Shown: positions 1,255-28,454, counted from the stretch's first letter. The stretch is DNA of 28,454 nucleotides from a virus (IMGVR_UViG_3300007276_000216:1-28454); one strand, 5' to 3'. Program-made: numbers and translations. Notes: generated by a model from the letters alone, not told the origin.

Positions 1255-1284
1255 GGGGGTGAGGTTTACCTACCCCCTTATTTT
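1255..1284 (+). terminator. Intrinsic terminator after gene 32
   Basis: GGGGGT (1255-1260) pairs with ACCCCC (1272-1277), and inside it AGG pairs with CCT around a small loop with one bulged G. TTATTTTAT follows. Being GC-rich in a very AT-rich genome, it should be strong. It probably caps gene 32 mRNA and lets only readthrough reach uvsX, because no clear promoter is visible between the two genes. Confidence 0.87.
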
Positions 1285-1306
1285 ATCTCTAATTATTAGG
1301 GATAAA
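1282..1306 (+). promoter_or_regulatory. Second hairpin in the uvsX leader
   Basis: TTTATCTCTA (1282-1291) pairs with TAGGGATAAA (1297-1306) through ten pairs including one G-U, around a 5-nt loop. Its left arm uses the T tract of the preceding terminator. It has no T tract of its own, so it is not a second terminator. It could modulate termination, protect the 5' end of a processed uvsX mRNA, or do nothing. Confidence 0.5.
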
Positions 1307-1339
1307 GTAGAAAAAAATCGGGGTACCTCAAAAATAATT

Positions 1340-4138: not shown

Positions 4139-5557
4139 ATGAGTAATATCAATAAAGATGTTGGTTTTGGGTTCTTAGGAATCCCTTATCAAAAGAGACT
4201 GTTATCCCAATTAATTACAGATTATAAGTTTTCGAGTAATATTATCTCAATAATAGATTCTAATTATTTTACTGATTTATATTTAAGGATTATCGCTTCT
4301 GAAATAAAAGAAGCTCATGAGACTGACGAAATTGTTCTAGATTATGAAAGTCTCATTTATAGACTTAACGCTAGAGGTGATAATGATGCCACTAGAATGT
4401 ATATTACAGCACAAATGGAAGAAATTAAAGACCTTCCGTTAAAAGACTCTGAATATATCCAAGACAAAGCCATGAAGTTCTGTAAACAACAAGAACTTCG
4501 TAAGGCCATGGAAGAAATTCAAGGGATTATTGAAAAAGGTAATTTAGATGATTATGATGCTTGTGAGGAAATAATGAAGAAAGCACTTGAAGTCGGTTCA
4601 GATAAAGATGCTGGTATTGATGTATTTTTTAATATTGATGACGTATTAAGTGAAGACTTTAGAAAACCTATACCAACTGGTATTAGTGGTTTAGATGAAA
4701 AGATGGATGGTGGTTTATCTAAGGGTGAATTAGGGGTAATATTAGCACCATTTGGTGTTGGAAAAACCACAATGATTACAAAAATTGCAAATACTGCATA
4801 TAGTCAAGGTTATAAGGTATTACAAATCTTCTTCGAAGATAATCCAAAAGTAATACAGAGAAAGCACTTATCGTGTTGGACTAGTATAGCACTTAATGAT
4901 TTAGCATTGGTTGAAAATCGTCCAATAATTGATGAAAAAGTAAAAGAATTTGAGGATGCTGGTGGATATTTAGAATTAAAGAAATTTCCTAGTGATGGGA
5001 CAACCATTCCAATAATCAAAAACTATGTTAGAAGGTTAACCGCTGCTGGTAGAAAACCTGATATTATCCTTATTGATTATATTGATTGTATTACATCAAC
5101 TAGAAATTATGATAAAGGATATGAAGCTGAAGGCCCAATCATGAGACAATTTGAAAGTTTGTTAAGTGAATTCCAAATGGTAGGTTGGACTGCTATTCAA
5201 GGTAATAGAGATTCGATTAATGCTGATACAGTTGACTCAACTATGATTGGAGGTTCAATTAAAAAAGGTCAAATCGGTCACTTTATAGTTTCAATTGCAA
5301 AAGATTTAGACCAAAAAGAAAGTGGTCGTGCTAACATGGCAATATTGAAATCTAGATTTGGAGTTGATGGGATAATTTTTACAGATGTTGAATTTAATAA
5401 CGCAAAGATTCAAATTAATATTGATGATGGAAATTACCTAAAAGCTTCTGAAATGCAATCATATAAAGAGACTAAAAACAACGCTTATACGGCTTCAGTG
5501 ATGAAAACCATTGAGTTACAAAAGGCTCTTGATAAGCAAACTCTTAAAGAAGAATAA
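4139..5557 (+). CDS. 41: Replicative DNA helicase, gp41/DnaB type
   Basis: This 472-aa protein matches gp41/DnaB in length and plan: an N-terminal helical domain (about 1-150), a linker, then a RecA-fold motor. The motor begins at the IPTGISGLDEKMDGGL segment (178-193), typical of DnaB. Walker A is APFGVGKTT (203-211), the catalytic Glu is in FFED (231-234), Walker B is IILIDYID (309-316), the sensor Gln is in IQGNRD (353-358), and KSRFG (404-408) resembles the arginine-finger loop. It would unwind DNA at the phage fork as a hexamer. No primase gene is seen in this window, and no fused primase domain is present. Confidence 0.88.
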   Translation: MSNINKDVGFGFLGIPYQKRLLSQLITDYKFSSNIISIIDSNYFTDLYLRIIASEIKEAHETDEIVLDYESLIYRLNARGDNDATRMYITAQMEEIKDLPLKDSEYIQDKAMKFCKQQELRKAMEEIQGIIEKGNLDDYDACEEIMKKALEVGSDKDAGIDVFFNIDDVLSEDFRKPIPTGISGLDEKMDGGLSKGELGVILAPFGVGKTTMITKIANTAYSQGYKVLQIFFEDNPKVIQRKHLSCWTSIALNDLALVENRPIIDEKVKEFEDAGGYLELKKFPSDGTTIPIIKNYVRRLTAAGRKPDIILIDYIDCITSTRNYDKGYEAEGPIMRQFESLLSEFQMVGWTAIQGNRDSINADTVDSTMIGGSIKKGQIGHFIVSIAKDLDQKESGRANMAILKSRFGVDGIIFTDVEFNNAKIQINIDDGNYLKASEMQSYKETKNNAYTASVMKTIELQKALDKQTLKEE

Positions 5558-5589
5558 AAATAATATTAATAAAAAGTAAATAAAGAAAA

Positions 5590-6549
5590 ATGAGCAAATA
5601 TTTAAAGATAGATAACGGTGATAGAGATACGAAATTTCCAATAATTCATAATGAACTTTGGGAGTTTTATAAAAAGCAACAAGCTAAAATTTGGACTGCT
5701 GAAGAATTAGATTTATCAAAAGACACTTTTGATGGTATACCACCTGAAGAAGTTGTGATACTAAAAAACCTTTTAGCGTTTTTTGGGGTTTCAGATACAT
5801 TAGTACAAGATAATTTGGCTGATGAAATAATATCAGAATTTTCAGAAGTTGAAGAAATTAAATCTAATTATGTCTACCAAGCATATATCGAAGATGTACA
5901 TAGTGAAACTTATTCTTTATTAATTGAGCAATTAATTGATAATGAAGAAGAAAAACAAGCTATGTTTAGAGCCATTAGAACTAACCCAGTTGTAGCCGCT
6001 AAAGTAAAGTGGGCACAAAAATGGTTAGATGAAGGTTCAATTATTCAAAGATTAGTTGCGTTTTCGTTATTAGAAGGTATGGGGTTTTCTAGCACCTTTG
6101 CAATGCTTATGTTCTTTAGAATGCGTTATCCGCAATTAGTAGGTTTAGGTCAGGCTAATGAATTAATATTACAAGATGAAGTTTTACATATGCATCTTGG
6201 TATTAATATGTATAACAAATATATTAAAGATGAATATAAGTTACCAGCTTCAGAAATCAAAGAAATGATTTTGGGTTGTTATGAAACAGAAAAGATTTTT
6301 GTTGAGTCAATATATGGTAATAATTATGTGCTAGGTTTAGATAAAGATAAACTTATTCAGTACATTCAATATGTTACGGACAGTTTATTAATTTATTATA
6401 ATATAGAAACTGTTTTTAAAGTTGAACAACCTTTTGATTTTATGGCATCTTTCTCAATTGTAGAACGTCAAAACTTCTTTGAAACTAAAGGTGGTGAATA
6501 TAATAGATTAACTAATATCGGTGGTGATTTAATGACCGATGATTTTTAA
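5590..6549 (+). CDS. nrdB: Ribonucleotide reductase class Ia, beta subunit
   Basis: This 319-aa protein is the radical-generating small subunit, which makes dNTPs for phage DNA together with NrdA. All expected residues of a di-iron, tyrosyl-radical enzyme are visible: D69 (SDTLVQDN), E101 and H104 in EDVHSETY, the radical Tyr Y108 in the same motif, E162 (LLEGMGFS), and E197 with H200 in DEVLH. The short acidic C-terminal tail ending MTDDF fits the NrdA-docking tail. It lies 21 nt before nrdA, with A-rich start sequence. No intron or homing endonuclease interrupts it, unlike T4 nrdB. Confidence 0.93.
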   Translation: MSKYLKIDNGDRDTKFPIIHNELWEFYKKQQAKIWTAEELDLSKDTFDGIPPEEVVILKNLLAFFGVSDTLVQDNLADEIISEFSEVEEIKSNYVYQAYIEDVHSETYSLLIEQLIDNEEEKQAMFRAIRTNPVVAAKVKWAQKWLDEGSIIQRLVAFSLLEGMGFSSTFAMLMFFRMRYPQLVGLGQANELILQDEVLHMHLGINMYNKYIKDEYKLPASEIKEMILGCYETEKIFVESIYGNNYVLGLDKDKLIQYIQYVTDSLLIYYNIETVFKVEQPFDFMASFSIVERQNFFETKGGEYNRLTNIGGDLMTDDF

Positions 6550-8839: not shown

Positions 8840-9223
8840 ATGGCCAATAAAAGTATCAATATTGACTTTCCCTTTCGAGATAGTAGAGAAGGTTTCTTTT
8901 TAAAATTGAATACAGAAGATTCTAAAGCAATTAAAGCTGATTTAATCCACCTTATTTTAACTAATAAAGGTGAACGTTTATATTTACCAGACTTTGGAAC
9001 TAATCTACGTAAGTATTTATTCAATCCATATGATGGAATCACCGAAGATGAAATTAAATCAGAAATAAGTGAAGCTGTTAAGAAGTATATTCCAAACTTA
9101 AAAATCAACTCAATTACATTCGAAGAAGCCCCACAAAGTCAGTACGGTGCTCTAGTTAGGTTAGACTACACTGTAACGGAAGATGTGTTTGAAAGTCGTG
9201 ATTTTGTAATTATCCAACTTTAA
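8840..9223 (+). CDS. 25: Baseplate wedge protein, gp25/lysozyme-like family
   Basis: This 127-aa protein (T4 gp25 is 132 aa) belongs to the GPW/gp25 family, a central part of the baseplate wedge that primes sheath assembly. Diagnostic features are the N-terminal INIDFPF strand, the block LTNKGERLYLPDFGTNLRKY (residues 40-59) and the following LFNPYDGITEDEIKSEI helix region, all very typical of the family. Despite the family name, lytic activity is not expected. It is followed by a hairpin that overlaps its stop codon and by the gene 6 promoter-like element, so it may be its own small transcription unit. Confidence 0.9.
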   Translation: MANKSINIDFPFRDSREGFFLKLNTEDSKAIKADLIHLILTNKGERLYLPDFGTNLRKYLFNPYDGITEDEIKSEISEAVKKYIPNLKINSITFEEAPQSQYGALVRLDYTVTEDVFESRDFVIIQL

Positions 9224-9244
9224 CTTTATTTTGTTAAGTTTTTT
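9216..9244 (+). terminator. Probable terminator overlapping the gene 25 stop codon
   Basis: AACTTTAAC (9216-9224, with one bulged T) pairs with GTTAAGTT (9233-9240) around an 8-nt loop and is followed by TTTT. The gene 25 stop codon (TAA, 9221-9223) is inside the left arm, so translating ribosomes could influence folding. The stem is AT-rich and moderate in strength. Confidence 0.55.
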
Positions 9245-9261
9245 ATTATCTTATATTTATA
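9245..9261 (+). promoter_or_regulatory. Late promoter-like element before gene 6
   Basis: ATTATCTTATATTTATA is identical over 17 nt to the element before the tail-fibre gene (25273-25289). It lies 15 nt before the gene 6 ATG, immediately after a hairpin. Its core TATTTATA is the reverse complement of the T4 late promoter core TATAAATA. Promoter function is inferred from recurrence and position. Confidence 0.6.
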
Positions 9262-9276
9262 ATAAAAAACATTACA

Positions 9277-11103
9277 ATGGCAAAAGGTATAGCATACTCA
9301 AGTAGAAATTTCGCTGATATTAGAACAGAATTAGTAGATTTTGTTAAACAATACTATCCAGACATATTATCAGATTTTAACGATGCCTCAATAGGTATGT
9401 TATTAATAGAGCTTAATGCTGCTGTTAGTGATATGTTATCTGTTAATACTGATAGAGCATTTCAAGAAACACAAATCGATTATGCAGAGCAAAGAAACTC
9501 TGTATTATCCATGGCAAGAACATTTGGTCTTAAAGTACCAGGTAAACGACCATCTATAAGTATTGTAGATTTTTCAGTAACAGTTCCTGTTTTCGGTGAT
9601 ACTTTTGATGTAAGATATGCACCAATAATTAGAGTTGGTACACAGGTATCTGGTGGCGGTAAAGTATTTGAAACACTAGATGATATTGACTTTGCAAGTC
9701 CATTCACTTCAGGTGGAATCCCAAATAGATTAATAATTCCTAATTTAGATAGTAATAGTAATATAATAAGTTACACATTAACTAAAAGGGAAATTGTTTT
9801 AAATGGTATTACAAAAACATTTACAAAAACGATTTCAAATGCTGAAGTAGTACCTTTTTATGAATTGGTATTACCAGATAATGATATATTATCAATAACT
9901 TCAGTAATTACAAAAACAGGTACAAATTTTTCAAGTAGTCCTACTATCGATGAATTTTTAGATTTCGATAATAGATGGTTTGAAGTTGATGCTTTAGCTG
10001 AAGATACAAAATTTATTGAAGATACTGCGGCAGTATCAGATAATGGTGGAATTAGACCTGGTAAATGGGTTAGAATTACTAGAAAATTCATAAAAGAATA
10101 TACTGATAATGGTTTTATAAAATTAATTTTTGGTAGCGGAAATCAAGATGTTTCTCAATTAGACGATTTTAACGTAGATAATTCTTTAAGTAGTAGAATT
10201 GGTGACTTTATCAATAATCTATCGTTAGGGGAGACTTTAAAAGCCAATACAACTGTTTATATACAATATAGAGTTGGTGGTGGGTCTAATACAAATTTAG
10301 GTTCCAATACAATAACATCTATTAACCTAGTAGATATGTTTGTTAATGGACCAGATAATACAATTAATACTTCTATTAGACAATCATTAACGGTTAATAA
10401 CCCTGTACCAGCTTTAGGTGGTAGAGATGAACCTTCAGTTGATGAAATCAGACAGTTAGTTAAATATAATTTCTCAGCACAAAATAGAGCGGTGACAATT
10501 AAAGATTACCAATCTAGAGTAAGTTTAATGCCAGGTGAATTTGGGGTTCCTTTTAGAACTGGTGTATTTGAAGAGCAAAACAAAATTATGGTTTACATAT
10601 TAGGTTTAAATTCTTCAGGTAAACTTTCAAATTCATCTACTAATACACTTAAACAAAACATTTCAAATTATCTGGCAGATTATAAAATGCTTAATGATTA
10701 TGTTGTTATTGGTGATGGTAGAATTATTAATCTAGGATTTGAATTCGATTTATTAATCGAAAAAGATTACCCACAATCACAAATAATTTCAAGTGTGATT
10801 CGTAGTGTAAGAGAATTCATGGATATTAATAAACATTATATGGGTGAGAATGTATACTTAGGTCAATTAATAGAAAATGTAAATAATGTTGGTGGTGTAA
10901 CCAACGTAATCGAAATTAGAGTTTTTAATAAAGTTGGTGAAGGTGTTTATTCAATGAATGAAATTGAACAACCTTACGTTGATGATGAAACAAAAGAAAT
11001 CTCAATTTCTGACCAATACACATTGTTCGGAAATCCGATTGGAATGTTTGAAATTAAATTCCCTGAAAAAGATATAAAAATAAGAGTTAAAACAGCGCAA
11101 TAA
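9277..11103 (+). CDS. 6: Baseplate wedge protein, gp6/J-like
   Basis: This 608-aa protein (T4 gp6 is 660 aa) would form the ring of the inner baseplate that joins the wedges. The N-terminal region FADIRTELVDFVKQYYP ... SIGMLLIELNAAVSDMLSVNTDRAF is typical of gp6/baseplate J proteins, and a second family signature, DEIRQLVKYNFSAQNRAVTIKDY (from about residue 386), lies in the second half. The order 25 then 6 matches the functional pairing of the T4 wedge. It is preceded by a promoter-like element and stops one base before the next ATG, so the genes downstream are probably co-transcribed with it. Confidence 0.88.
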   Translation: MAKGIAYSSRNFADIRTELVDFVKQYYPDILSDFNDASIGMLLIELNAAVSDMLSVNTDRAFQETQIDYAEQRNSVLSMARTFGLKVPGKRPSISIVDFSVTVPVFGDTFDVRYAPIIRVGTQVSGGGKVFETLDDIDFASPFTSGGIPNRLIIPNLDSNSNIISYTLTKREIVLNGITKTFTKTISNAEVVPFYELVLPDNDILSITSVITKTGTNFSSSPTIDEFLDFDNRWFEVDALAEDTKFIEDTAAVSDNGGIRPGKWVRITRKFIKEYTDNGFIKLIFGSGNQDVSQLDDFNVDNSLSSRIGDFINNLSLGETLKANTTVYIQYRVGGGSNTNLGSNTITSINLVDMFVNGPDNTINTSIRQSLTVNNPVPALGGRDEPSVDEIRQLVKYNFSAQNRAVTIKDYQSRVSLMPGEFGVPFRTGVFEEQNKIMVYILGLNSSGKLSNSSTNTLKQNISNYLADYKMLNDYVVIGDGRIINLGFEFDLLIEKDYPQSQIISSVIRSVREFMDINKHYMGENVYLGQLIENVNNVGGVTNVIEIRVFNKVGEGVYSMNEIEQPYVDDETKEISISDQYTLFGNPIGMFEIKFPEKDIKIRVKTAQ

Positions 11104-11104
11104 T

Positions 11105-11416
11105 ATGGGATGTGGATGTAAAGGTGATTTTCAAAACGATGAGTTTATTGGAAAGGAAAATAGTGAGTTAACCCTAAGTGGTAAATTATTAAGAATTCCA
11201 GCGGGAATTATATTAACATTAATTTATGTTGTGTTATCTCCATTTATCTTATTTTATATTTGGTGGTTAGCAATAAGATATATATTTGGTCACAAAGCTG
11301 TGATGTTTGCTTTCTTAAAGAAATTTCAAAAATATAAAGAAAAAGAAGAAGATGATTTTGATGAAGATTTCAACGAAGAAGATTATGAATTAGTAGGTGT
11401 AGAAGTAATTAAATAA
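11105..11416 (+). CDS. Small membrane protein within the baseplate operon
   Basis: This 103-aa protein is of unknown family. The N-terminus MGCGCKGDFQND is Cys/Gly-rich without a lipobox. Residues about 31-61 are strongly hydrophobic, with a Pro at 46, and could be one long helix or a tight two-helix hairpin. A basic stretch follows (LKKFQKYKEK), then a very acidic tail (EEDDFDEDFNEEDYE). It starts one base after the gene 6 stop, and its stop overlaps the next start (TAATG), so its expression is tied to baseplate genes. A holin-like, membrane-anchoring or baseplate-assembly role are all possible; none is shown. Confidence 0.8.
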   Translation: MGCGCKGDFQNDEFIGKENSELTLSGKLLRIPAGIILTLIYVVLSPFILFYIWWLAIRYIFGHKAVMFAFLKKFQKYKEKEEDDFDEDFNEEDYELVGVEVIK

Positions 11417-14400
11417 TGTCAAGAAATATAAGAATCCGTACCGAACCAAATGGTGGTGATAATAGTGTTAAAATTCAATTAAATCAAGATTTTGATTTTC
11501 TTGAAATTTTATCATTAAAAATATCACAAGAAGATGTATACCGTAGTTTTTACTCAAATTATGGTGTGGTAGTTGGGCGTGTAATAATGAATAGTGGTGT
11601 TGGAGTTCCTAATGCTAGAGTTTCAATCTTTATTCCTTTAACTGATGAAGATGCTCAAGACCCAGAAATTTCAACCTTATATCCATATTCAGATTTACAA
11701 GTTTTAAGTGAAGAAGGTATTAGATATAATACATTACCTAAAGATGCACAAAGTGAGTGTCATGCACCAATTGGTACATTCCCAACTAAAAGGGAATTAA
11801 TTGATAACCCAGAGCTTTTTGAGGTATATAAAAAATATTATAAATATACAACAACAACTAACGGTGCTGGTGACTTTATGTTATTTGGTGTTCCAGTTGG
11901 TAATCATATATTAAATGTGGATGTGGATTTATCAGATATTGGAATATTTTCACAAAGACCTTATGATTTTATAGAACAAGGTAATCCTAAAAAATTATTT
12001 GATTCACCAACCAAATTTAAAGCTGGTAATAATCTTAATAATTTAACGCAAGTTAAAAATAGACAACTTGGTGTTAATGTAATTCCATTTTGGGGTGAAC
12101 AAGAAGCTAAAGAAGTCGGTATTAGTAGAATTGATATTGATTTAAATTATAATATACAACCACAAGCAATCTTCACTGGTTCAATATTTGGGGATAATGA
12201 AAAAAATAGTGTAAATAAAAACTGTAGACCTAGAAAAAAGATGGGTAGAGTTTGTGAAATGGGTGAAGGGTCTGGTACTATTGAAATCTTAAGGAAAACA
12301 TTATTTGGTGAAGTTGAAAAATTAGATATTGAAGGTGGTCAATTAATTAATGATAATGGTGTTTGGGCATTTCAAGTTCCAATGAATTTAGACTATATGA
12401 TTACTAATGAGTTTGGTAGATTAGTTCCAACTGATAACCCAAATAAAGGAATCGCAACTAGAACTAGGGTTAGATTTAAAGTATCATTAAATGAAACAGG
12501 TGGTAGTGGTAGATTAAGAACTAAAGCTAAATATTTAATACCTCATAATCCAGAAAGGGAAGATGAAGTTGATTATTCTTTTGATGAATCAACATCTGAT
12601 ATCCATTTTAGAGATATGTATTGGAATAAAATATATACAGTTAAAAATCACATTGCTAGATATCAGAAAAATTCTAATAAGGAAAATAGAAATTTTATAG
12701 GGTTTAAAGATGTTGATAATTGTGTAGGTCTTAAAAATCCTATACCATTTAATAAATTAGATACTGATTTTAATCCAGTTTATACAATCTTATGTCTAAT
12801 AATATCATTTATAATTGAGATATTATCAATTATAAATAATATTATTAGTTTTCAAATTAAAATACTTGGTGTTAAAATTAGACCATTTTGTTGGATAGGT
12901 TGTATTAGAATAACATGTCCAATTACTGATGTGAAATATACACCTGGTTGTAGAAATCGATGTAGTAGTACGGGTAATAATAGTAAGAGTGAAACATTAG
13001 ATTGTTTCCAAATAGCTTTAGCTGAAACACTTAATGTATTTGAATTTGATTTTTATAATGAATGGATAAATGGTGCGTTATACCCGTTTTTATTAAAATA
13101 TAAAAAGAATAAAAGTGATGAGAAATTTTGCGGTGAAATAGACGGTGGTGGTGAAGATAGTAATGGACTTGATAATAATAAGTTGGTAAACACCAACCCA
13201 GATAATGGTAGAGTCAGTGATAGTCAAGCTATTAGTATTCATGAGGGTGTTATTGTTAGTTATGAAGATGAATTATTTTATAAGCCCTTAACAAGTGGGC
13301 GTGTGAGAAGTGATGGTATTGGCGGTGTTGGTGGTGCTAAATTATATGCGACTGATTTATATAATTTAGGTGCGGTATTTGATTGTGATTGGCAAGCTTT
13401 ACCAAAAGTGCAACCAGAATTAATTGCAACAACATATCAAATCCCACCATTTGTTAATGAAAGGGATGAAGCTGGTCAAATTACTGTTACAGGTTTAGTC
13501 CCTTTATTATTCGATATTTCATGTACAAATATTAAAGTTAATAATACACAATCTAGGTCTATTAGAAGGATATGTGAAATAGGTGTGGGTCTTGATGAAG
13601 ATGATACAAGAAACACCGCAATTGATAATGCTGATATTGATGATGAATTAATACGTTCACAATTGATTAAATTAAATGACCCTAATTATGCATTTGATGA
13701 TATCGATTTAATCGACTCAAAATTTAATTCATCACAATATAATTCATATAGAGCTAAAACTAAAATTGGTGCTCTTGAACAGTTCAACAATTCATTTTAT
13801 TTCTATTTCGGAACTAAACCAAATAATTCTGCTTTAGATTTAATGAATAGTAAATATTTTACTTCTTGTAGTAGATTGCCTAAAATTATAATTAATATAA
13901 CTGGTATTATTTCAGATGTAACAACAGTTAATGGTACCGATGGGTCAATTAATATTACAGTACAAGGTGGTGCGCCAGATTATACATATGAATGGTATAA
14001 AACTGATAATCCTCAAATACCTTTAAGTGATACTGAAGATGTTGGTAATTTATCAGCTGGTAGTTATTTTGTAATAGTTACTGATAGTAATGGTGTTTCA
14101 GTTAAAAAAACATTTATTGTTAGAGGGTTATTAAAATTAGAAGCTAATATTACAACAAGAAATTCACAATCAACAACCGCTAATAATGGGATTATTTATA
14201 TTAACTCAATTACAGGTGGAATTGGGCCTTATGATATAACAATATTAAAAACAAGTACCCCAGCTGGGTTTACTTCAACACAACTTGATATTCCATATGC
14301 AACATTATTTGAAGGTTTAGATGATGGAATTTATGATATAACGGTAAGTGATAGTAATACGGATGAACCTCAAATTTCTGGTTATACTAGAACGATTGCG

Positions 14401-14928
14401 GTTCCAACTCAATTATTAGTAACTCCATTTTCAACACCAACTAATTGTGTTGAATTTAATGATGGTCAAGTTAGACTTAAAATAGAAGGTGGTACACCTT
14501 TTTATTCGGTTGAATTTTCATCAGTGACCACATCTACCTTTACAGGTTCTACATATAGTTCTGATATTACATATCCAGACCCAGATGTGGTAGCTGCTTT
14601 TGTAATATTTGAAGATTTACCACCAGGTGCTTATAGATTTTTAGTGGTTGATGAATTTGGTCAAAAATACCCTCCAAGTGGGATACCACAAGAAGTTGTT
14701 GTGGAAGATACGCCCGAACCAGGTCTAAATAGGTTGAATTCCACCACGTTAGGTGCATATAATTTAGTTGAAGGTGTTGAATATACTTTACAAAAGGGTG
14801 GTACCGATGTAGAAACAGGGATAATAGGTCCAGCAGATGGGTCATTAACTCTAGGGGGTCATCTTAAAAGTTCAGATAGATATCAAATAATAAGTCAATT
14901 TGGTTGTGCGAGTGATACGATAGAATAA
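11416..14928 (+). CDS. Large multidomain baseplate/tail protein with SprB-like repeats
   Basis: This 1170-aa protein sits where T4 has gp7 (1032 aa), but I see no clear gp7 similarity. Residues 1-40 carry a short pattern shared with three downstream proteins. Residues about 50-175 resemble a carboxypeptidase-regulatory-like beta-sandwich (GVVVGRV, GVPNARVSIF, later TTTTNGAGDFMLFGVPVGNH) with an inserted loop. Residues about 454-480 are a hydrophobic, membrane-like stretch, followed by a cluster of six Cys (from about 492). Residues about 825-1100 are three tandem Ig-like domains; the first matches SprB repeats well (NGTDGSINITVQGGAPDYTY ... LSAGSYFVIVTDSNG), the others more loosely. A 70-residue tail ends the protein. 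It is probably an outer baseplate component; the exact T4 equivalent is uncertain. Confidence 0.78.
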   Translation: MSRNIRIRTEPNGGDNSVKIQLNQDFDFLEILSLKISQEDVYRSFYSNYGVVVGRVIMNSGVGVPNARVSIFIPLTDEDAQDPEISTLYPYSDLQVLSEEGIRYNTLPKDAQSECHAPIGTFPTKRELIDNPELFEVYKKYYKYTTTTNGAGDFMLFGVPVGNHILNVDVDLSDIGIFSQRPYDFIEQGNPKKLFDSPTKFKAGNNLNNLTQVKNRQLGVNVIPFWGEQEAKEVGISRIDIDLNYNIQPQAIFTGSIFGDNEKNSVNKNCRPRKKMGRVCEMGEGSGTIEILRKTLFGEVEKLDIEGGQLINDNGVWAFQVPMNLDYMITNEFGRLVPTDNPNKGIATRTRVRFKVSLNETGGSGRLRTKAKYLIPHNPEREDEVDYSFDESTSDIHFRDMYWNKIYTVKNHIARYQKNSNKENRNFIGFKDVDNCVGLKNPIPFNKLDTDFNPVYTILCLIISFIIEILSIINNIISFQIKILGVKIRPFCWIGCIRITCPITDVKYTPGCRNRCSSTGNNSKSETLDCFQIALAETLNVFEFDFYNEWINGALYPFLLKYKKNKSDEKFCGEIDGGGEDSNGLDNNKLVNTNPDNGRVSDSQAISIHEGVIVSYEDELFYKPLTSGRVRSDGIGGVGGAKLYATDLYNLGAVFDCDWQALPKVQPELIATTYQIPPFVNERDEAGQITVTGLVPLLFDISCTNIKVNNTQSRSIRRICEIGVGLDEDDTRNTAIDNADIDDELIRSQLIKLNDPNYAFDDIDLIDSKFNSSQYNSYRAKTKIGALEQFNNSFYFYFGTKPNNSALDLMNSKYFTSCSRLPKIIINITGIISDVTTVNGTDGSINITVQGGAPDYTYEWYKTDNPQIPLSDTEDVGNLSAGSYFVIVTDSNGVSVKKTFIVRGLLKLEANITTRNSQSTTANNGIIYINSITGGIGPYDITILKTSTPAGFTSTQLDIPYATLFEGLDDGIYDITVSDSNTDEPQISGYTRTIAVPTQLLVTPFSTPTNCVEFNDGQVRLKIEGGTPFYSVEFSSVTTSTFTGSTYSSDITYPDPDVVAAFVIFEDLPPGAYRFLVVDEFGQKYPPSGIPQEVVVEDTPEPGLNRLNSTTLGAYNLVEGVEYTLQKGGTDVETGIIGPADGSLTLGGHLKSSDRYQIISQFGCASDTIE
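13888..14719 (+). repeat. Three tandem SprB-like/Ig-like domain repeats (protein level)
   Basis: Three domains of roughly 80-100 codons lie near residues 825-904, 904-996 and 996-1100 of the 1170-aa protein. Each has the sequence order 'DG-I-hydrophobic ... GG-P-Y ... F/L-L-aG-Y-x-V-x-D'. They are diverged at DNA level, so they are old duplications or separate acquisitions rather than recent copies. Confidence 0.65.
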
Positions 14929-18272: not shown

Positions 18273-19190
18273 ATGGCAAATGGAAATTTTGGGACAGTTA
18301 GACCAGCTGATGTATCATTAAATGATATAGAAGTGTTCTTACATTATACCCCATCTAGAAATGATATTGGTGATACTACATTAACCAAATTAAATACTAA
18401 TGAGGTTCTTTCAGAAGTAAGTAACCCAAATAATACAAATAATGTAGAGATATTTGGTGGTATGTATACGTTAACGTTACCTAGTACACTTTTCTCTGAG
18501 AAGGGAATTTATACTTTACATATTAAACCAGTTGAAATTAGAACTAGAATATTAGATTGTGGTGTGTTATCAGCAAAATCAGAAATTAAAGGACTTATAT
18601 TTGATACTGCATCACAAAATTTAGATAGTGCATTTACATCTAGATTCCAAAATGGTGGTTTAGTTGGTTATAGAGTTGAATATTTAAATACAACAAATTC
18701 TTCTGGTGGTGTTAAGGTTAGAAATACATTTAGAGTAATTACATCTAATAATAGAGTTGATGTGGTTAATCAAAACTTAACTAATACAAATCAAAAAGCT
18801 GTTAGATATAGTTTTAATGATAACTCAACATTAGTTTTCTGTACAGTGACCCCAAGTTCTGCATCTAATGTAAAACCTAATGTATTACCATTTATTGGCG
18901 AACCAAATCAAGAAGTTATTATAACCAACACTTTTTTTAATCCAGTGATGATTGAAATTGAAATGGTTGAACATGACCTTGAAACAATTGCTTATGGTCT
19001 TTATGGTCCACAAAGTAAATCTCTTGAAGATGGTATTTATACACAATATACATTTGATGGTAGTATTTATAAGCAATATAACTTATTTGAAATTAAAGAC
19101 CAGTTCACAGGTGTGCCTCTATTTGAGGTTAAAGAGCCAAGAACTGAAATTGATTTTAGTAAAAACTTTGACGATATTAGCCAAGTATAA
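18273..19190 (+). CDS. Structural protein of the baseplate operon, 305 aa
   Basis: The family is not recognised. The protein begins MANGNFGTVRPADVSLNDIEVFLHY and lacks the shared N-terminal pattern of its upstream neighbours. It is beta-rich, with a segment near residues 60-95 (MYTLTLPSTLFSEKGIYTLHIKP) that reads like an Ig-like strand pair. The C-terminal third contains YGPQSKSLEDGIYTQYTFDG and ends in an acidic stretch. It ends in a TAATG overlap with the 970-aa gene, so the two are likely translated together. Probable virion protein by context. Confidence 0.77.
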   Translation: MANGNFGTVRPADVSLNDIEVFLHYTPSRNDIGDTTLTKLNTNEVLSEVSNPNNTNNVEIFGGMYTLTLPSTLFSEKGIYTLHIKPVEIRTRILDCGVLSAKSEIKGLIFDTASQNLDSAFTSRFQNGGLVGYRVEYLNTTNSSGGVKVRNTFRVITSNNRVDVVNQNLTNTNQKAVRYSFNDNSTLVFCTVTPSSASNVKPNVLPFIGEPNQEVIITNTFFNPVMIEIEMVEHDLETIAYGLYGPQSKSLEDGIYTQYTFDGSIYKQYNLFEIKDQFTGVPLFEVKEPRTEIDFSKNFDDISQV

Positions 19191-22102
19191 TGAGTAATAG
19201 AGTAAAAATCGTAGGATATGCAAAAAAGGAATTCTTTACTAATGGTATAGAGTATAGAAATTTCTCACCAGACCTTGTGGGTAATCAACTCGCATCGAAT
19301 GAGGGTAGCCCTGTCTTTACGATGGGTAATTTCAACATTTCTACAAATTTAGATGATAAGGTAAATAAAACATTTGTAACTAATAGTTTTTCTAATTACA
19401 AGTCTTTAGAAACCCTAAATCTTGATGAAGCTTTTGAAACTGTTATTACAAAATACTCTAAACAAGCTAAATTAAATTTAAATTACGATGATTTATTAAC
19501 TTATGCCTTCTTCGGTTCATTACGAGAATTTATAAGGGTGTCATTAGAAAATATAATTATAAAGTGGCCAGCTTCATTATATATTTCTGAAATTGACCCA
19601 ACGGATGCTTCTAATACGGGTGATACAATTAGTAATTATAGCTACAACGCTGTAACAAATACATCAACATTCGATGTTAACGTTAATAGGATTGAAAACC
19701 CATATAATATAAATTTTTTATCAGGTGGTACAATTGAGGGGACCTTCAATGAAACAAATCAATTAAGAAATTTATCAATTAATTATAATTACTATGAAGT
19801 TAATAATGAATATGGTGATTATAGTGTTATAGGCTTCACAGGTTCAAGTGATATTCTAACATCAACTATTACATTACAAACTCAAGGTAACCCATTTCCT
19901 AATTCAGGTAGTGAAAATATTAATTATCATGTTAGACCAAATGAATTAAAAAGAGAAGAATTCTTCTTTAATTTAAATGAATTTGAGAATAGATTACTTA
20001 ATAGACTATCAATACCTATTTACACAAGCTCATTTAGAGTGTTTTCTGAGACCGAAAATGGAACAACTGTAGAAAGTACCAAAAAAATTACTTGGCCTCT
20101 TAGAGATGGTTATAACATTGATTTTGATTCTATTGATTATTCTAGATTTGTTAACAAGTTATTAGAACTTTCAGATATTAATGATTCTTCTAGGTCAAAT
20201 TTAATGGTTAGATTTTTAGTTTCATCTTCTATTTCAGAATTTGATACTGGTGCTGATATTAATGGTAGTTATGGAAACACTAATGGTCAAAAAATGACCA
20301 ATGCGTTAAAAATCTATGGTAGAGAGTTCGATGAAGTCAAAAAATATTCAGATGGTATTAAATTTGCCAATGTTGTAACATATGATAAAAAGAATAATAC
20401 ACCTGATGCCGTTATTAAAAATTTAGCTAGAGTATTAGGTTGGCAATTAACATCATCAATTTCACAGATTGATATAATAGGAAATTTCTTATCATTAAAT
20501 AATAATTATTATGATGGGTATTCCAGAGGTTTAAGTGAAGCAGAAGCTGAAGTTGAACTTTGGAGAAGAATTGTTTTAAATACTCCATGGCTTTGGAAAT
20601 CTAAAGGTACTAGGAAGGCTATAGAATTTTTATTTAAATTTATTGGAGCACCAGAGGGTCTTATAACTTTTAATGAATATGTTTATGTGGCCGACCAACC
20701 AGTGGATGTTGATTTAGTTACAGAAATGATGGAGTATTTTAATAATACCTCAGATATTAGTGGACTAAACCTTGATTCAAATGGATATCCATTTATTCAA
20801 CCAAACACACCAGAAATGTATTTTCAAAAAGCTGGTTTGTGGTATAGACAAACGGGTGGTGCAAATCCAGATATAGATATACTTGAAGGTAATAATCCTC
20901 ATATTGGGCCTTACGATGGAGGTCAAGAATATATAAACCAATTTAGTACTTGTTTAGTCCCTAATTTTGTTCTTGGGACTAATGAAGAATCAGATATTGA
21001 AGCTGAAGTAAATTTATTTTCAAATTATGCTAATGGAACATTCGATGAATGTTGTGATGGGAATATATATGTGGCTGTAGATACAGATTTAGATTTTGAT
21101 GCTATAGTTCAGGTTAATAAAGATAATGTAATAAATAATTTTCCAGTTACTAATACTGGATGTACTTTTACGAGTTCATGGACTCTTATAGCTCAATTAA
21201 CTGGTGAAACTTTTTATGAAAATACATTTTTAACAAGTGTATCAGCATTAACTGAATCTGAATATATATCTGAAATTTATAATTTAAGTGGAACAACTGA
21301 ATTAAGTGGGATTACATTTAATTATAGTGATGGTAGTTTAGATATTATTTCACCTGATGGTTGTAATAATGATTTATTGAATACATATTTTAAATTAGAA
21401 TTATGTGTGTCAACTGCATATAATTGTATTGAAGAAGGTGTTGGTGCCAGTGGATTAACAGAGTTCTTTGTTCCAGTTAAATATAGTAATGGTTGTGGAA
21501 TTACAACTACTCAACAACTAGTTAATTCATTATATCATGATGGTGCTGGCGCATTACCAACTCTTGGGGATGTTATTTATAGTGATTCACAAGGTGTTAC
21601 ACCATTTGTGTCCCCTTCTGGTGATACATTCCCACACTTATATTTAGGTGGTGATATTAATAATGAAGATAATTATTTATTAACTAATAATAGTGGTGTT
21701 ATGGTAGATATTGTATGTGTTGGAACATGTACAGTTATACTTGGTAAAACAATAGGTAGAGTGGGTACAGGTATTGGTGGATTTAGTATCGATGGGTTAT
21801 TAGAACCAACTCAAGTTTCAATAACATATACAGTATATGATATAGTTAGAGATAATAATAATGCTACACTTAACATTATATTTGACAATGGTGTAATTTT
21901 AAATGAAAATAACTCACCTATTAATGATGTAATAACAATTTCACCTTCAGCAAATGTTGATTATACAAGTAATTTTACAACTTCAACTTCAAACATTCCA
22001 GAACTTAAAATAAGTCAATATAAAATTAGAATTGAATTGTTTGATATAGGTAATAATTGTATACTTGGACCATCATATCAAATATTAATAATAAATTTAT
22101 AA
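19190..22102 (+). CDS. Large baseplate/tail protein with a tail-protein-I-like patch, 970 aa
   Basis: The N-terminal 450 residues are of unknown fold, with several aromatic and Asn-rich stretches. Residues about 450-490 hold a conserved-looking helical patch, ELWRRIVLNTPWLWKSKGTR (W458, K472-G473-T474), followed by AIEFLFKFIGAPEG. This resembles the 'KGT-x-x-A-x-x-x-L' patch of P2 gpI-type tail proteins, which sit at the baseplate rim and hold fibres. From about residue 615 the protein is Cys-bearing and beta-rich (ECCDGN and further spaced Cys), like the genes that follow. It is probably the connector between the wedge and the receptor-binding parts, but that is inference. Confidence 0.75.
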   Translation: MSNRVKIVGYAKKEFFTNGIEYRNFSPDLVGNQLASNEGSPVFTMGNFNISTNLDDKVNKTFVTNSFSNYKSLETLNLDEAFETVITKYSKQAKLNLNYDDLLTYAFFGSLREFIRVSLENIIIKWPASLYISEIDPTDASNTGDTISNYSYNAVTNTSTFDVNVNRIENPYNINFLSGGTIEGTFNETNQLRNLSINYNYYEVNNEYGDYSVIGFTGSSDILTSTITLQTQGNPFPNSGSENINYHVRPNELKREEFFFNLNEFENRLLNRLSIPIYTSSFRVFSETENGTTVESTKKITWPLRDGYNIDFDSIDYSRFVNKLLELSDINDSSRSNLMVRFLVSSSISEFDTGADINGSYGNTNGQKMTNALKIYGREFDEVKKYSDGIKFANVVTYDKKNNTPDAVIKNLARVLGWQLTSSISQIDIIGNFLSLNNNYYDGYSRGLSEAEAEVELWRRIVLNTPWLWKSKGTRKAIEFLFKFIGAPEGLITFNEYVYVADQPVDVDLVTEMMEYFNNTSDISGLNLDSNGYPFIQPNTPEMYFQKAGLWYRQTGGANPDIDILEGNNPHIGPYDGGQEYINQFSTCLVPNFVLGTNEESDIEAEVNLFSNYANGTFDECCDGNIYVAVDTDLDFDAIVQVNKDNVINNFPVTNTGCTFTSSWTLIAQLTGETFYENTFLTSVSALTESEYISEIYNLSGTTELSGITFNYSDGSLDIISPDGCNNDLLNTYFKLELCVSTAYNCIEEGVGASGLTEFFVPVKYSNGCGITTTQQLVNSLYHDGAGALPTLGDVIYSDSQGVTPFVSPSGDTFPHLYLGGDINNEDNYLLTNNSGVMVDIVCVGTCTVILGKTIGRVGTGIGGFSIDGLLEPTQVSITYTVYDIVRDNNNATLNIIFDNGVILNENNSPINDVITISPSANVDYTSNFTTSTSNIPELKISQYKIRIELFDIGNNCILGPSYQILIINL

Positions 22103-23583: not shown

Positions 23584-25260
23584 ATGGAAGTAACTAATTG
23601 TACAGATATAAATGGAGTTGCGTTAAATGAAGTTCAATTTAATGTGGATGGAACAGTTGTAGGTATTATTGAAATAGATAATATTAATACAACTAGTAAT
23701 TTAAGCTGTGCTTGTTGTGAAGCTCAAGGTTGGGTATTTGACCCAACTGATACAAAGTGTTACTGGGCTGCTTCTTGTTTAACTGGTGGTACTTATAATA
23801 TTGTGTTGGACCCAGTAGGTAATACAGGGGCTTTATTTCAAATAGATGAGAATCAAGAAGGGATATGTAGTTTAGAATTAGAATTTGATTGGTTACTTAA
23901 ATTTGATTGTACCAAGGTTAAATTACCACTTAGACAACTATTAGAAGAATTAAAATTAAACGTACAAATTGAAAAAGTAATTTTTGATGAATCATTACCA
24001 ATACCCAATAATTTAGAATCGGTAGCTTCTGAATCTATGTTTGATATAAATAATATTTTTACATATTTAGATGGTAATGAAAATACTGGTTTATTATTAT
24101 CAGGACCTGATAATAATTGTGGACCAATTTATGAAAACTTTTTAAATGATTTACAACCTAATGATGATGTCGTTAATGAATTTTCATTAAATTCTGATTG
24201 GGTTAGATTTAGAATGGTTATTGAAGATTTAGAAATTCTAGAAACAATTTATAATGAAAGGCTTAAGATATCTATTCAAGGTAACAGTCTTGCTAATTTC
24301 TCAATATTAATTGATAATGTTAAATTAAATAGACTGTGTGATGTACCAACACCATCACCGTTCTTAGATGAAGAATGTCCTAAATTTGAACTTAAGAGGG
24401 TTATTGATAATAAAAAATCATGGGTTGAAAAAACTGAATTTGAAGTTAGACAGTTTAATTTAGATAGAAGGGAAACTAGTTATAGTATTAACGAAGAAAA
24501 ATTATCAATCAACACGAAAGAAGTTGATTTACGTATTAATCCATCCCAAGCCATTGAAACCGATGTATTTAACAGTATTAGGGAAAACCCTTGTTTATTA
24601 GCTCCAGCAACTGGATGTACTTCAGGTGATACACATGAATGTGTTGATTTAACACCACTTATTACTGTACCATTAACTGAACTTATTGATGATAATGAAC
24701 TATTAAATATGTTAATTGATGCTAAAAGTAGAAAAACTATTAGAGCTTATCCAACAATAGATTTATTATTTTATAGATATAAAAATGCACAAGAACATTG
24801 TGGGTTAAATTTAAATAATATTGATGAAAATTCATTAGACCAATTTATTAATTTAATTGGTACGTATTGGTCTGATTTAATTGAACAATTAGTACCAGCT
24901 ACAACTATTTGGGGTTCTTCATTAACTAATGGTAATAACGCATTTACTTCTAGCAGTTCAAATAAATTTAAATATAAAAAATACACAGCATTCCCATGTG
25001 GTACAACGGCACCTTCTTATGCAGTTCCTAGTCCAACATATTTAGATGTTTCGGTTGATGTTACCTCTCAAGATATAACAAATAGTAATACTACAATCGC
25101 TCAATTATGTAGTGGATTATCAATTAGACAAATCAATGATGGTTCGGAGTTCATCGGAACTGTAACAATTATTGGGGATGGTGAAGGACCATCTTCAGGT
25201 TCAACGATTTCAATTACAGAAACTATCACAGATGAATGTGATAAATTTGAAGATTGTTAA
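23584..25260 (+). CDS. Tail structural protein with one CC unit, 558 aa
   Basis: The family is not confidently recognised. Residues 42-65 form the unit CACCEAQGWVFDPTDTKCYW plus AASC (Cys-Cys at 44-45, C59), the best-formed copy of the motif repeated in the 285-aa protein. The central part (about 95-330) alternates helix-like and strand-like segments (for example LRQLLEELKLNVQIEKVIF). Residues about 385-445, AYPTIDLLFYRYKNAQEHCG ... GTYWSDLIEQLVPATTIWG, look like a conserved core rich in aromatics. The C-terminus is a Ser/Thr-rich beta segment. Its position just before the fibre gene suggests a tail-tip or fibre-attachment role. Confidence 0.77.
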   Translation: MEVTNCTDINGVALNEVQFNVDGTVVGIIEIDNINTTSNLSCACCEAQGWVFDPTDTKCYWAASCLTGGTYNIVLDPVGNTGALFQIDENQEGICSLELEFDWLLKFDCTKVKLPLRQLLEELKLNVQIEKVIFDESLPIPNNLESVASESMFDINNIFTYLDGNENTGLLLSGPDNNCGPIYENFLNDLQPNDDVVNEFSLNSDWVRFRMVIEDLEILETIYNERLKISIQGNSLANFSILIDNVKLNRLCDVPTPSPFLDEECPKFELKRVIDNKKSWVEKTEFEVRQFNLDRRETSYSINEEKLSINTKEVDLRINPSQAIETDVFNSIRENPCLLAPATGCTSGDTHECVDLTPLITVPLTELIDDNELLNMLIDAKSRKTIRAYPTIDLLFYRYKNAQEHCGLNLNNIDENSLDQFINLIGTYWSDLIEQLVPATTIWGSSLTNGNNAFTSSSSNKFKYKKYTAFPCGTTAPSYAVPSPTYLDVSVDVTSQDITNSNTTIAQLCSGLSIRQINDGSEFIGTVTIIGDGEGPSSGSTISITETITDECDKFEDC

Positions 25261-25315: not shown

Positions 25316-28300
25316 ATGAGTCTTGAAACAATTCTTAATAAGATTGCCGCAATAACCGATGGTGGTAAAAATTCTGCGTTTGAAATGAGGTCAGTTTTAA
25401 CTGATATCACATCTACGTTTTCAGGTGCAACAACCCCTATAACAAACACTTCAGAATTAACCAATGATGGTGAAGATGGTGTTAATCAATTTATAACATC
25501 TGGTGATACAACTCAATTTATAACATCTGCTGATACACCAACAAATACTTCAGAATTAATTAATGATGGTGAAGATGGTATAAACCCATATACTACAATT
25601 ACAGAAGTTTATGGTGGTAGTGTAATTTTAGATGCTAATTATTATAGAATAGAAAATTTTGAATATTTCGTTTATGCTAACAAATATGTTATAAATGGTG
25701 AGTTATTTAATAATTATATTTCAAATACAATTACTTTATCAGGTGCCAGTTTACAAGATAGAATTGATGTAATTGCAATTAATAATGATGAGTCTTTCAG
25801 CGTTATTCAAGGTATTCCAGGTGAAAACCCGATTAAACCAGATATTAGTGGTGAAACTCAAATAGAATTAACATTTGTATTAGTACAAGTTGGTACCACA
25901 GAACCAACTAACGTTTTCGACATATTAATTTATGATGAAAATGTAGGAACACCTACTGAATGGAATACGTCAGTATCTTCAGCACAAGTTATTCCTAATT
26001 ATGGTGGGGATTCACAAAATGGCTCAACTTCAATTGCTTTTAGTGCTGTAACAAGTGCTGATTATATTAATTTTGATTACACCTCTACAATAAGTGGAAA
26101 TGACTTATCAAACATTGTTTTTAGAATTAAATTATTAAATGTAGCACCACATAGACTCTCAATTAGATTATATAATACAGGTACTAGTCAAACAGGACTT
26201 AACTTAAATATTGATAGTGGGTTATTTGGTTTCGATAATACAATATTAAACACTTGGCAAACTATTATAATACCTAAAACACTTTTAGGGGTTTCTGGGA
26301 TGGATTTCGATAGGATTAGAATATTCTCTAGAAGGTCTGGTGTTATATTCTTAATTGATAATATAATAGCACAAAATGGTACATTGGTTATATCAACTGG
26401 ACCAACAATTACAAACACTTCAGAATTAACCAATGATGGTGAAGATGGTATAAATCCTTATGTGAATTCACTTGAATTAAGTGCGGCAACAAGCGGCACT
26501 TCTGAATGGAGTACTTATACAGGAACTAGAGTTGGTGGAGATTTAATTGTTACATTAGCAGATTATGATTTCAGTGGAACTGGAACAAAAATCAATATAG
26601 ATGTTAGTTCTCAAGAAATTTTATTAGATACACAAACTGGGGGGCAGATTATAGTAAATGGGGAAATATTTTCTAAGTATGGAATTGGAGTTTCTTTTGA
26701 AAATGCAGCAGCAACTTTTAATGGTAATTTAAGAGCCAATGTAAGTGATTTTAGAGATTGGATTTTACCAGATGCATCAGGAACTTTAGCTTTAACAAGT
26801 GATTTTGGAGATTATATACCTTTAAGTGGAACAGGAGTTGGAAGTCCTGTAACTGGTGATATTGAATTTGAAGGTAGTTATAGTGAAAAAGGATTTATAA
26901 ATACTTTTACTGATGAAGATTTAGTATCAACCATGTATTTTAGTGATAATGGACTTTATTTACAAGCACGAAACATAGCGGGTACTCTCACATCTACTTT
27001 AAATATTAGAAAAGATGGGGTTGGAATGGTAACAACTGACCCTACTTCTAAAGGAGTGTATTCAAATACTTACCATGCAGCAAATTATGACGACAATACT
27101 TACGTCCAAAAGAAATATGTAGATGATAATTATATACCTCTATCAGGAACACTTTCTGGAAGTCCTGTAACTGGTGTTGTGGAATTAATTTATGAAGGTA
27201 ATAAATTAGGATTTTTCATGGATGTTGGTTCTTATGTAACAAGAATAGGAGTGGATGGCGGTGGGAAACCTTTTATGGAATTTGATGATACACTAGGTAT
27301 TACGGGAGAAGTAAGTAGTATTAATTTGGATAATGAATTTTTAAATATAAACGCAAATCACCCATTATTTAAAGGGATACTAGGTAGTTCATACTACGGA
27401 GCAAACTACACCGATAACACTTATGTTCAAAAGAAATATGTAGATGATAATTATATACCTTTAAGTGGAACACTTTCTGGAAGTCCTGTAACTGGTGATA
27501 TTGAGTTTTCTGAAACCAATAAATTATATAAAGTTGGTGGAGATTCTACTCAATCTATATATTTTGAAGATGGAGATTTAATTATTAGAAGCGAAGATAA
27601 TGAAGGAATTGGAACGGATGTTTCGGATTTTAACCATTTAACTGATGGATTACTTTTAGATAGTAATAATTCTGGTTTTTATGGAATTAGAGGGATTCAA
27701 TATTACGGAGCAAACTACGATGACAATACTTACGTCCAAAAGAAATATGTAGATGATAATTATATACCACTATCAGGAACAGGAGTTGGAAGTCCTGTTA
27801 CAGGAGTAATAGAAAGTACATCTAATAATTGGATTACAACTACTGTAAGTGACCAAGATTTTGTAATTGGAGTAGGCGATGATTTAGATATACTAAACAA
27901 CGCTAATAGGTCATCATCTCTTGAATTGGCTAACGGAGTTACCCAAAGTAAAGCTAGCCTTAGGATTAATAATGCTACTTATGCACAAAGATTTACTTTA
28001 ACCGAAACCTCTGGAGCTAGTTATATTAATATAACAGGTGATAACCCTGCTTTTAAAGGGTTGGATGGTTTTGCATACTACGGAGCAAACTACACAGACA
28101 ACACTTACGTTCAAAAGAAATATGTAGATGATAATTATATACCACTATCAGGAACAGAAGTTGGCAGTCCTGTTACTGGTAGAATTGAGGTTGAAGATTA
28201 TATTGTCAGTATTGGGCATAATGTAAATGAAAGTGCACTTCTAACAGATGGATTATATTCTTATATACTTTGGAACGGAGGGAATGGAGTTACAACTATA

Positions 28301-28454
28301 CAAAGTGGTGAAGTAGGAGGATTTGTGGGAGGTCTTGATATAAGAAACAACGGTTTAGAGTACGATTCATCAGACCCATCATCTAAAGGTATCTACTCAA
28401 CTTCATACTACGGTGCAAACTACAATGACAACACTTACGTCCAAAAGAAATATG
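25316..28454 (+). CDS. Long modular tail-fibre protein (3' end beyond the window)
   Basis: The frame is open from ATG 25316 to the right edge (1046 codons plus one base) with no stop, so the true gene is longer. The N-terminus MSLETILNKIAAITDGGKNS is probably the virion attachment part. NTSELxNDGEDG occurs at residues 44-55, 77-88 and 367-378. Residues about 209-352 read like a jelly-roll carbohydrate-binding module (WQTIIIPKTLLGVSG ... RIRIFSRRSGVIFLIDNI). From about residue 499, unrelated segments of 60-90 residues alternate with a nearly constant linker, YVQKKYVDDNYIPLSGT then GSPVTG (starts near 586, 693, 796, 921 and 1031). Glycine codons shift from mostly GGT to mostly GGA at about 26460. 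It is likely the receptor-binding fibre of a trimeric kind; a C-terminal chaperone or binding tip would lie outside the window. Confidence 0.85.
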   Translation, partial: MSLETILNKIAAITDGGKNSAFEMRSVLTDITSTFSGATTPITNTSELTNDGEDGVNQFITSGDTTQFITSADTPTNTSELINDGEDGINPYTTITEVYGGSVILDANYYRIENFEYFVYANKYVINGELFNNYISNTITLSGASLQDRIDVIAINNDESFSVIQGIPGENPIKPDISGETQIELTFVLVQVGTTEPTNVFDILIYDENVGTPTEWNTSVSSAQVIPNYGGDSQNGSTSIAFSAVTSADYINFDYTSTISGNDLSNIVFRIKLLNVAPHRLSIRLYNTGTSQTGLNLNIDSGLFGFDNTILNTWQTIIIPKTLLGVSGMDFDRIRIFSRRSGVIFLIDNIIAQNGTLVISTGPTITNTSELTNDGEDGINPYVNSLELSAATSGTSEWSTYTGTRVGGDLIVTLADYDFSGTGTKINIDVSSQEILLDTQTGGQIIVNGEIFSKYGIGVSFENAAATFNGNLRANVSDFRDWILPDASGTLALTSDFGDYIPLSGTGVGSPVTGDIEFEGSYSEKGFINTFTDEDLVSTMYFSDNGLYLQARNIAGTLTSTLNIRKDGVGMVTTDPTSKGVYSNTYHAANYDDNTYVQKKYVDDNYIPLSGTLSGSPVTGVVELIYEGNKLGFFMDVGSYVTRIGVDGGGKPFMEFDDTLGITGEVSSINLDNEFLNINANHPLFKGILGSSYYGANYTDNTYVQKKYVDDNYIPLSGTLSGSPVTGDIEFSETNKLYKVGGDSTQSIYFEDGDLIIRSEDNEGIGTDVSDFNHLTDGLLLDSNNSGFYGIRGIQYYGANYDDNTYVQKKYVDDNYIPLSGTGVGSPVTGVIESTSNNWITTTVSDQDFVIGVGDDLDILNNANRSSSLELANGVTQSKASLRINNATYAQRFTLTETSGASYINITGDNPAFKGLDGFAYYGANYTDNTYVQKKYVDDNYIPLSGTEVGSPVTGRIEVEDYIVSIGHNVNESALLTDGLYSYILWNGGNGVTTIQSGEVGGFVGGLDIRNNGLEYDSSDPSSKGIYSTSYYGANYNDNTYVQKKY
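25445..25480 (+). repeat. NTSELTNDGEDG repeat, copy 1
   Basis: This 36-nt unit encodes NTSELTNDGEDG in the fibre and is followed by VNQF. Copies 2 and 3 are at 25544 and 26414. Confidence 0.85.
25544..25579 (+). repeat. NTSELINDGEDG repeat, copy 2
   Basis: This is the second copy, encoding NTSELINDGEDG and followed by INPY. It differs from copy 1 by two bases (AAT for AAC in the first codon, ATT for ACC region in codon six) and precedes the carbohydrate-binding-like domain. Confidence 0.85.
26414..26449 (+). repeat. NTSELTNDGEDG repeat, copy 3
   Basis: This copy is the same at DNA level as copy 1 and is followed by INPY as in copy 2. It lies just after the carbohydrate-binding-like domain, so copies 2 and 3 bracket that domain. 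The codon habit of the gene changes right after this copy. Confidence 0.85.
26810..26866 (+). repeat. Fibre linker repeat, half copy
   Basis: This holds only the second half of the linker: DYIPLSGTGVGSPVTGDIE. It marks the beginning of the modular part of the fibre. Confidence 0.85.
27071..27175 (+). repeat. Fibre linker repeat, copy 1
   Basis: It encodes YHAANYDDNTYVQKKYVDDN followed by YIPLSGTLSGSPVTG. The block CAAAAGAAATATGTAGATGA (27107-27126) and the following ATAATTATATACC are identical in copies 1 to 4. Confidence 0.92.
27392..27505 (+). repeat. Fibre linker repeat, copy 2
   Basis: It encodes YYGANYTDNTYVQKKYVDDN followed by YIPLSGTLSGSPVTGDIE. It begins 321 nt after copy 1. Confidence 0.92.
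27701..27805 (+). repeat. Fibre linker repeat, copy 3
   Basis: It encodes YYGANYDDNTYVQKKYVDDN followed by YIPLSGTGVGSPVTG. It begins 309 nt after copy 2. Confidence 0.92.
28076..28180 (+). repeat. Fibre linker repeat, copy 4
   Basis: It encodes YYGANYTDNTYVQKKYVDDN followed by YIPLSGTEVGSPVTG. It begins 375 nt after copy 3; the module between copies 3 and 4 is the longest one seen. Confidence 0.92.
28406..28454 (+). repeat. Fibre linker repeat, copy 5 (cut by window edge)
   Basis: It encodes YYGANYNDNTYVQKKY and then the window ends. It begins 330 nt after copy 4. The array therefore continues to the right. Confidence 0.9.

Follow-up and report, generated by a model that had tools for sequence, protein, structure and literature searches.

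In T-even phages the exchanged part of the tail fibre is the distal tip. For these phages it is established that the distal tail-fibre locus is exchanged through recombination at conserved motifs (Tetart, Desplats and Krisch 1998, cited in PMC10408124). The same has been proposed for tailspikes: in those of E. coli phages, different phage genera have DNA motifs of 20-95 bp in common, which were suggested to act as recombination hotspots around exchangeable receptor-binding domains (PMC10408124). Here we describe a fibre gene from an incomplete virus record, contig IMGVR_UViG_3300007276_000216 (28,454 bases; analysed at full length and referred to as the window), which resembles the tailspikes in that shared DNA motifs flank apparently exchangeable segments. 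However, the tailspike motifs surround one exchanged domain in the receptor-binding protein region, whereas those of the window recur along a tandem array in another protein family. Compared with the T-even phages, whole cassettes serve as units, each bounded by a start motif (A) and an end motif (B) and arranged in tandem, and they were not found to be related in sequence to known fibre families.

A like array is carried by the Chryseobacterium phages MA9V-1 (WIC41292.1) and MA9V-2 (WNN12331.1), whose proteins of 797-798 aa follow the A...B grammar of the window's fibre (FVPLTGT..NPITG ... ASDNHYVQRKFV), the inserts being alternately long and very short. They differ from the window's fibre in being annotated as 'hypothetical protein' and in a motif B of PTSDN rather than YYGANY type. 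The short tail fibre of MA9V-1 was assigned to a different ORF (PMC10537231), and a term search of that paper gave no mention of a cassette-array architecture. The same cassette as in the window is found, in one and three copies, in the bacterial fibre genes L177 and L189, whose clusters also encode sheath-like proteins, an AAA ATPase and lysozyme; these fibres differ in being chromosomal, in having one to three cassettes and in cores unrelated to those of the window.

Results

The last ORF of the contig (25316-28454, plus strand; 1046 aa) is stop-free up to the contig edge and open there. A profile search against Pfam, PHROGs and NCBIfam gave no family match for it. It belongs to a run of tail and baseplate genes of a tailed phage, which includes two baseplate wedge subunits (8840-11103). 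Because the contig encodes, besides these wedge genes, an exonuclease, a DnaB-like helicase, a gp32-like single-strand DNA-binding protein (279-1232, plus strand) and a UvsX-like recombinase (1259-2434, plus strand; PHROG 97, E = 1.4e-7, with Pfam RecA below cut-off), the virus is a T4-like phage; its hosts would be Bacteroidota, judging from the cassette homologues described below. A sequence-only reading of the window had called gp32 and uvsX neighbours of the array, which is not the case, as they sit approximately 24 kb upstream (279-2434). Both products may be regarded as candidate recombination factors, yet their presence is no evidence for such a role, because they are expected in any T4-like phage. 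As part of the best explanation of the locus, ORF 25316-28454 is read as a long tail-fibre or adhesin subunit of a T4-like Bacteroidota phage, with a tandem cassette array as its distal part.

Several observations concern structural genes outside this array. A 1170-aa structural protein (11416-14928) contains a SprB repeat (PF13573), a type familiar from the gliding adhesins of flavobacteria, as well as a Hoc-like match. The N-terminal half of the fibre carries a second repeat, NTSELTNDGEDGINPY, in three copies (25419-25492, 25518-25591 and 26388-26461), which explains the majority of the 49 viral loci, otherwise unrelated, that were matched by the fibre search; most of these match only the N-terminal NTSELxNDGEDG stretch, not the cassette array. 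The NTSELTNDGEDGINPY stretch may be another joint common to structural proteins of Bacteroidota phages. Fibre residues 78-386 (25547-26473) align at 42% identity with a segment of a 2172-aa protein encoded by another phage (IMGVR_UViG_3300006919_000042; L002, 10001-10927), and mosaicism is thus also seen outside the array.

The final 547 residues of the fibre ORF, counted up to the contig edge, consist of five head-to-tail cassettes, all on the plus strand: cassette 1 (26813-27130; 106 aa; profile match 1e-36, with a model that includes cassette 1 itself), cassette 2 (27131-27451; 107 aa), cassette 3 (27452-27760; 103 aa), cassette 4 (27761-28135; 125 aa) and cassette 5 (28136-28454; at least 106 aa, its motif B being cut by the contig edge). 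A cassette of about 105 aa starts with motif A (IPLSGTxxGxPVTGxIE), continues with a beta-rich variable core and ends with motif B (G..YYgaNYxDnTYVQKKYVDDN). Where two cassettes meet, the end motif B (G..YYGANYxDNTYVQKKYVDDN) and the next cassette's start motif A (YIPLSGTxxGSPVTGxIE) together form a linker. Linkers 1 to 4, also on the plus strand, occupy 27053-27190, 27374-27511, 27683-27820 and 28058-28195, each with an invariant 32 nt (27107-27138, 27428-27459, 27737-27768 and 28112-28143, respectively), and linker 5 (28388-28454, plus strand) is truncated by the contig end. The linker is not an element in its own right, because the whole A-core-B cassette occurs singly in other proteins. 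This arrangement also explains the half copy at 26811-26869 (plus strand; motif A only, DYIPLSGTGVGSPVTGDIEF), since it is the start of cassette 1, whose motif A is preceded by unique sequence.

Start-to-start spacings are 321, 309, 375 and 330 nt, every value being a multiple of three, and the cores span 68-90 aa between the motifs. No significant similarity was found among the cores or between them and a profile built from other cores; in this core-profile search core 1 alone scored slightly above shuffled controls. The sequence-only reading had given the same coordinates and spacings and had described inserts that differ in length and share little, all of which holds. Its linker set likewise stands (four full copies, one truncated by the contig edge and a half copy), but 'almost identical' is too strong for their DNA, as identity among the full linkers is 74-82% over 129 nt. 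The cassette family had no model match in Pfam, PHROGs or NCBIfam. A monomer model of one cassette predicted, with modest confidence, five consecutive beta strands in the core (pLDDT about 60-74 there, 48 overall) and a monomer model of two cassettes was useless (pLDDT 28); both predictions are too weak for a fold search, and no solved structure resembling the cassette was found. The contig stops within a repeated linker, and its final 22 nt (28433-28454) are present two more times, at 27098 and 27728. This break may be a simple repeat problem or reflect several real continuations in the population.

Exact identity among the linkers extends over 32 nt in all four full copies and over 46-47 nt in the best pairs. 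The exact 32-mer was found in no other IMG/VR contig. At identical residues, 138 pairs of identical codons were observed, where the window's codon usage predicts 101±8.6 (5000 simulations, none reaching 138; p<2e-4), and the ten codons for QKKYVDDNYI are identical in 4/4 full linkers, with a probability of 3e-5 given codon usage. This excess of synonymous identity indicates that the linker copies share recent DNA ancestry, for which recent duplication could by itself also be the source.

The linker copies are, moreover, mosaic. Motif B groups copies 1 and 3 against 2 and 4, while motif A, by the residues after SGT, groups 1 and 2 against 3 and 4. TTA AGT is found in the half copy and copy 2, and CTA TCA in copies 1, 3 and 4; the blocks CTA TCA/TTA AGT and CTT TCT/GGA GTT, only a few codons apart, occur in all four combinations. 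Such four-gamete conflicts among the copies result in a Hudson-Kaplan Rm of 2. Parallel change may account for single sites but hardly for whole blocks, because AGT and TCA do not agree at any codon position. The motif B stretch at 27071-27106, which is the motif's 5' part, and its counterparts in linkers 2-4 also stand out by composition, with a GC3 of 0.50 compared to 0.15 for the whole gene. Among the pyrimidine-ending codons of this 5' part 24/39 end in C, compared to 98/596 in the whole gene (these 39 included); the corresponding p-value of 4e-11 is too strong, as the linker copies are not independent. This composition would be compatible with import from a donor of other codon usage.

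Among the window's own kin, no second IMG/VR contig with this fibre was found, and cores 4 and 5 had no match elsewhere in IMG/VR. The 970-aa gene at 19190-22102 retrieved 80 related loci, many of them truncated, and no cassette was present in the stretches of these loci that were fetched. In the closest ones with enough downstream sequence (L053, L056 and L057; approximately 61% identity), other genes follow the orthologue of 23584-25260. A pattern search with this last gene yielded no loci, though orthologues are present in L053-L057. In INPHARED, nothing was found with the whole fibre or whole cassettes as query, while a composite linker query matched, weakly, MA9V-1 and MA9V-2. These two phages have the same set and order of cassettes; their strongest divergence is in the insert of the last cassette (alignment columns ~560-640; 52-55% identity).

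Single complete cassettes occur in unrelated surroundings in a viral contig (L134), a Bacteroidia MAG (L136), a contig binned as Candidatus Nomurabacteria (L137) and Chryseobacterium tagetis (L138). In L137 the cassette directly precedes a Peptidase_S74 chaperone (PF13884, E = 2.6e-14), which places the cassette together with a trimeric fibre chaperone; the C-terminus of the window's own fibre is cut off. L137 has a GC content of 49%, shares the DNA GTCCAAAAGAAATATGT with the window and carries a Bacteroidota-type cassette; it is likely a phage contig or a recent transfer. In L138, a neighbouring protein (4330-5823) has motif A about 200 residues away from the rest of the cassette and may be a cassette whose core is far longer. 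Almost the same fibre was found in a viral contig (L131) and a Mucilaginibacter MAG contig (L135), the motif B of which is 85-87% identical at the DNA level to that of the window's linker 2.

The cassette was present in 69/296 genomes of the Chryseobacterium tagetis family, compared to 3/395 in a sample of the phylum, and in this family the same flanks surround different cores. Between L178, L179 and L180 on the one hand and L185 and L188 on the other, protein identity is 87-92% in the N-flank, 16-20% in the core and 85-89% in the C-part; between L155 and L166 it is 94%, 13% and 76%, respectively. Among the 21 listed pairs whose identity before the cassette reaches 85% or more, core identity is no higher than 20% in 8 and 67-100% in most of the remainder; the pairs, which are not independent of one another, correspond to two or three events at the least. 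Conversely, the protein identity of L155 to L185 and L188 is only 9-10% in the N-part, compared to 80-85% in the core and 93-97% in motif B, as is the case for a transplanted core. At the DNA level L155 is a chimera: it is 87% identical to L166 over 300 nt up to motif A, and from within motif A onward it follows L188 (core 87%, motif B 93%), the cores of L166 and L188 being unrelated (26%). The transplanted core and this chimera show that rapid divergence alone is insufficient. Copy number also varies at a syntenic locus, with one cassette in L177 and three in L189; the downstream DNA of the two clusters is 84% identical over 1.36 kb, and the single cassette of L177 finds its counterpart in the third cassette and C-terminus of L189. 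Same flanks around a different segment with breakpoints in conserved motifs, the signature of T-even-type exchange, are thus found among members of the cassette family but not for this phage itself.

The chromosomal fibre clusters encode tail-sheath-like proteins at a distance of approximately 35 kb from the fibre; G203 has three of them and G214 two, the matches being weak, with one above cut-off. In G214, an AAA ATPase adjoins the fibre, and lysozyme and a spanin-like protein, both read by eye, were also found. PF13699, a core family of extracellular contractile injection systems (eCIS), gave no match, its control likewise being without a match anywhere. From this gene content, we read the clusters of G203 and G214 as probably encoding a contractile particle, i.e. 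a tailocin or injection system.

Discussion

The fibre array is probably explained by in-frame exchange and addition of cassettes through recombination at the A and B motifs. For the cassette family such exchange is well supported; for this phage it is supported indirectly, by the DNA of its linkers. That modules are swapped, gained or lost at the linkers, as the sequence-only reading had proposed, is borne out in the Chryseobacterium family by the swaps, the transplant, the junction in motif A and the one versus three copies. For the phage itself the codon excess and the mosaic linkers speak in favour of the proposal, while no rearrangement was seen in close kin. Counting against exchange in this phage, moreover, the swaps were seen in chromosomal fibre genes that belong to another lineage and mostly have a single cassette, and MA9V-1 and MA9V-2 keep one cassette order. 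An exact identity of 32-47 nt is also short for efficient homologous recombination.

The array might instead have arisen by ordinary tandem duplication of one fibre domain, with motifs kept for structural reasons, fast-diverging cores and no exchange at this locus. The head-to-tail repeats of similar length would fit such an origin, and the conservation of the motifs across distant proteins shows that protein constraint is real. Nevertheless, duplication followed by divergence leaves unexplained a synonymous identity of the linkers above the codon-usage expectation, their four-gamete conflicts and cores without clear mutual similarity, and it could not have put the same core on unrelated N-termini, as seen in the relatives. 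We therefore regard it as unlikely. To mis-joining of a repeat-rich region during assembly, in which case the order or number of cassettes would not be real, we give very little credence: although this metagenomic contig ends in a linker, with its last 22 nt found twice more, a single ORF is open over 3.1 kb and across four junctions, the exact repeats of 32-47 nt are spanned by ordinary short reads, and the same grammar is present in the assembled genomes of MA9V-1 and MA9V-2 and in many chromosomes.

Hypervariable cores of phage adhesins are typical targets of diversification devices, and a diversity-generating retroelement or an invertible segment acting on the fibre could be considered on this general ground. 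The repeats of the array are, however, direct, with only weak inverted pairs and none convincing around a core, so that the inverted repeats flanking a variable part that typify the Mu G-segment are missing; the cores differ over their full length and by indels, not at scattered adenine positions; and inspection of the ORFs listed for this fragmentary contig revealed neither a reverse transcriptase nor a site-specific recombinase. We consider a dedicated device of this kind very unlikely.

Under cassette exchange at the motifs, homologous recombination would take place within the shared motif DNA, either between phages or between copies of the array. It would both exchange and add cassettes, and the mosaic linkers would be its trace. 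Since the copies are spaced by multiples of three, such exchange would always be in frame. The motifs may further act as structural joints into which any core plugs, and variable cores would alter fibre length and surface binding. In a broader and more tentative reading, which we regard as possible but rather doubtful, the A and B motifs would be an exchange currency shared by Bacteroidota phages and the fibres of chromosomal contractile particles, with adjustable arrays that display several cores at once and a repertoire that changes by in-frame recombination.

What is new compared to the T-even and tailspike systems is an exchanged unit with defined ends that forms tandem arrays and is common to phages and chromosomal contractile particles of Bacteroidota. 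These defined ends allow the starts and stops of cassettes to be predicted and many 'hypothetical' fibres to be annotated, and defined cassettes make the link between array composition and host range directly testable.
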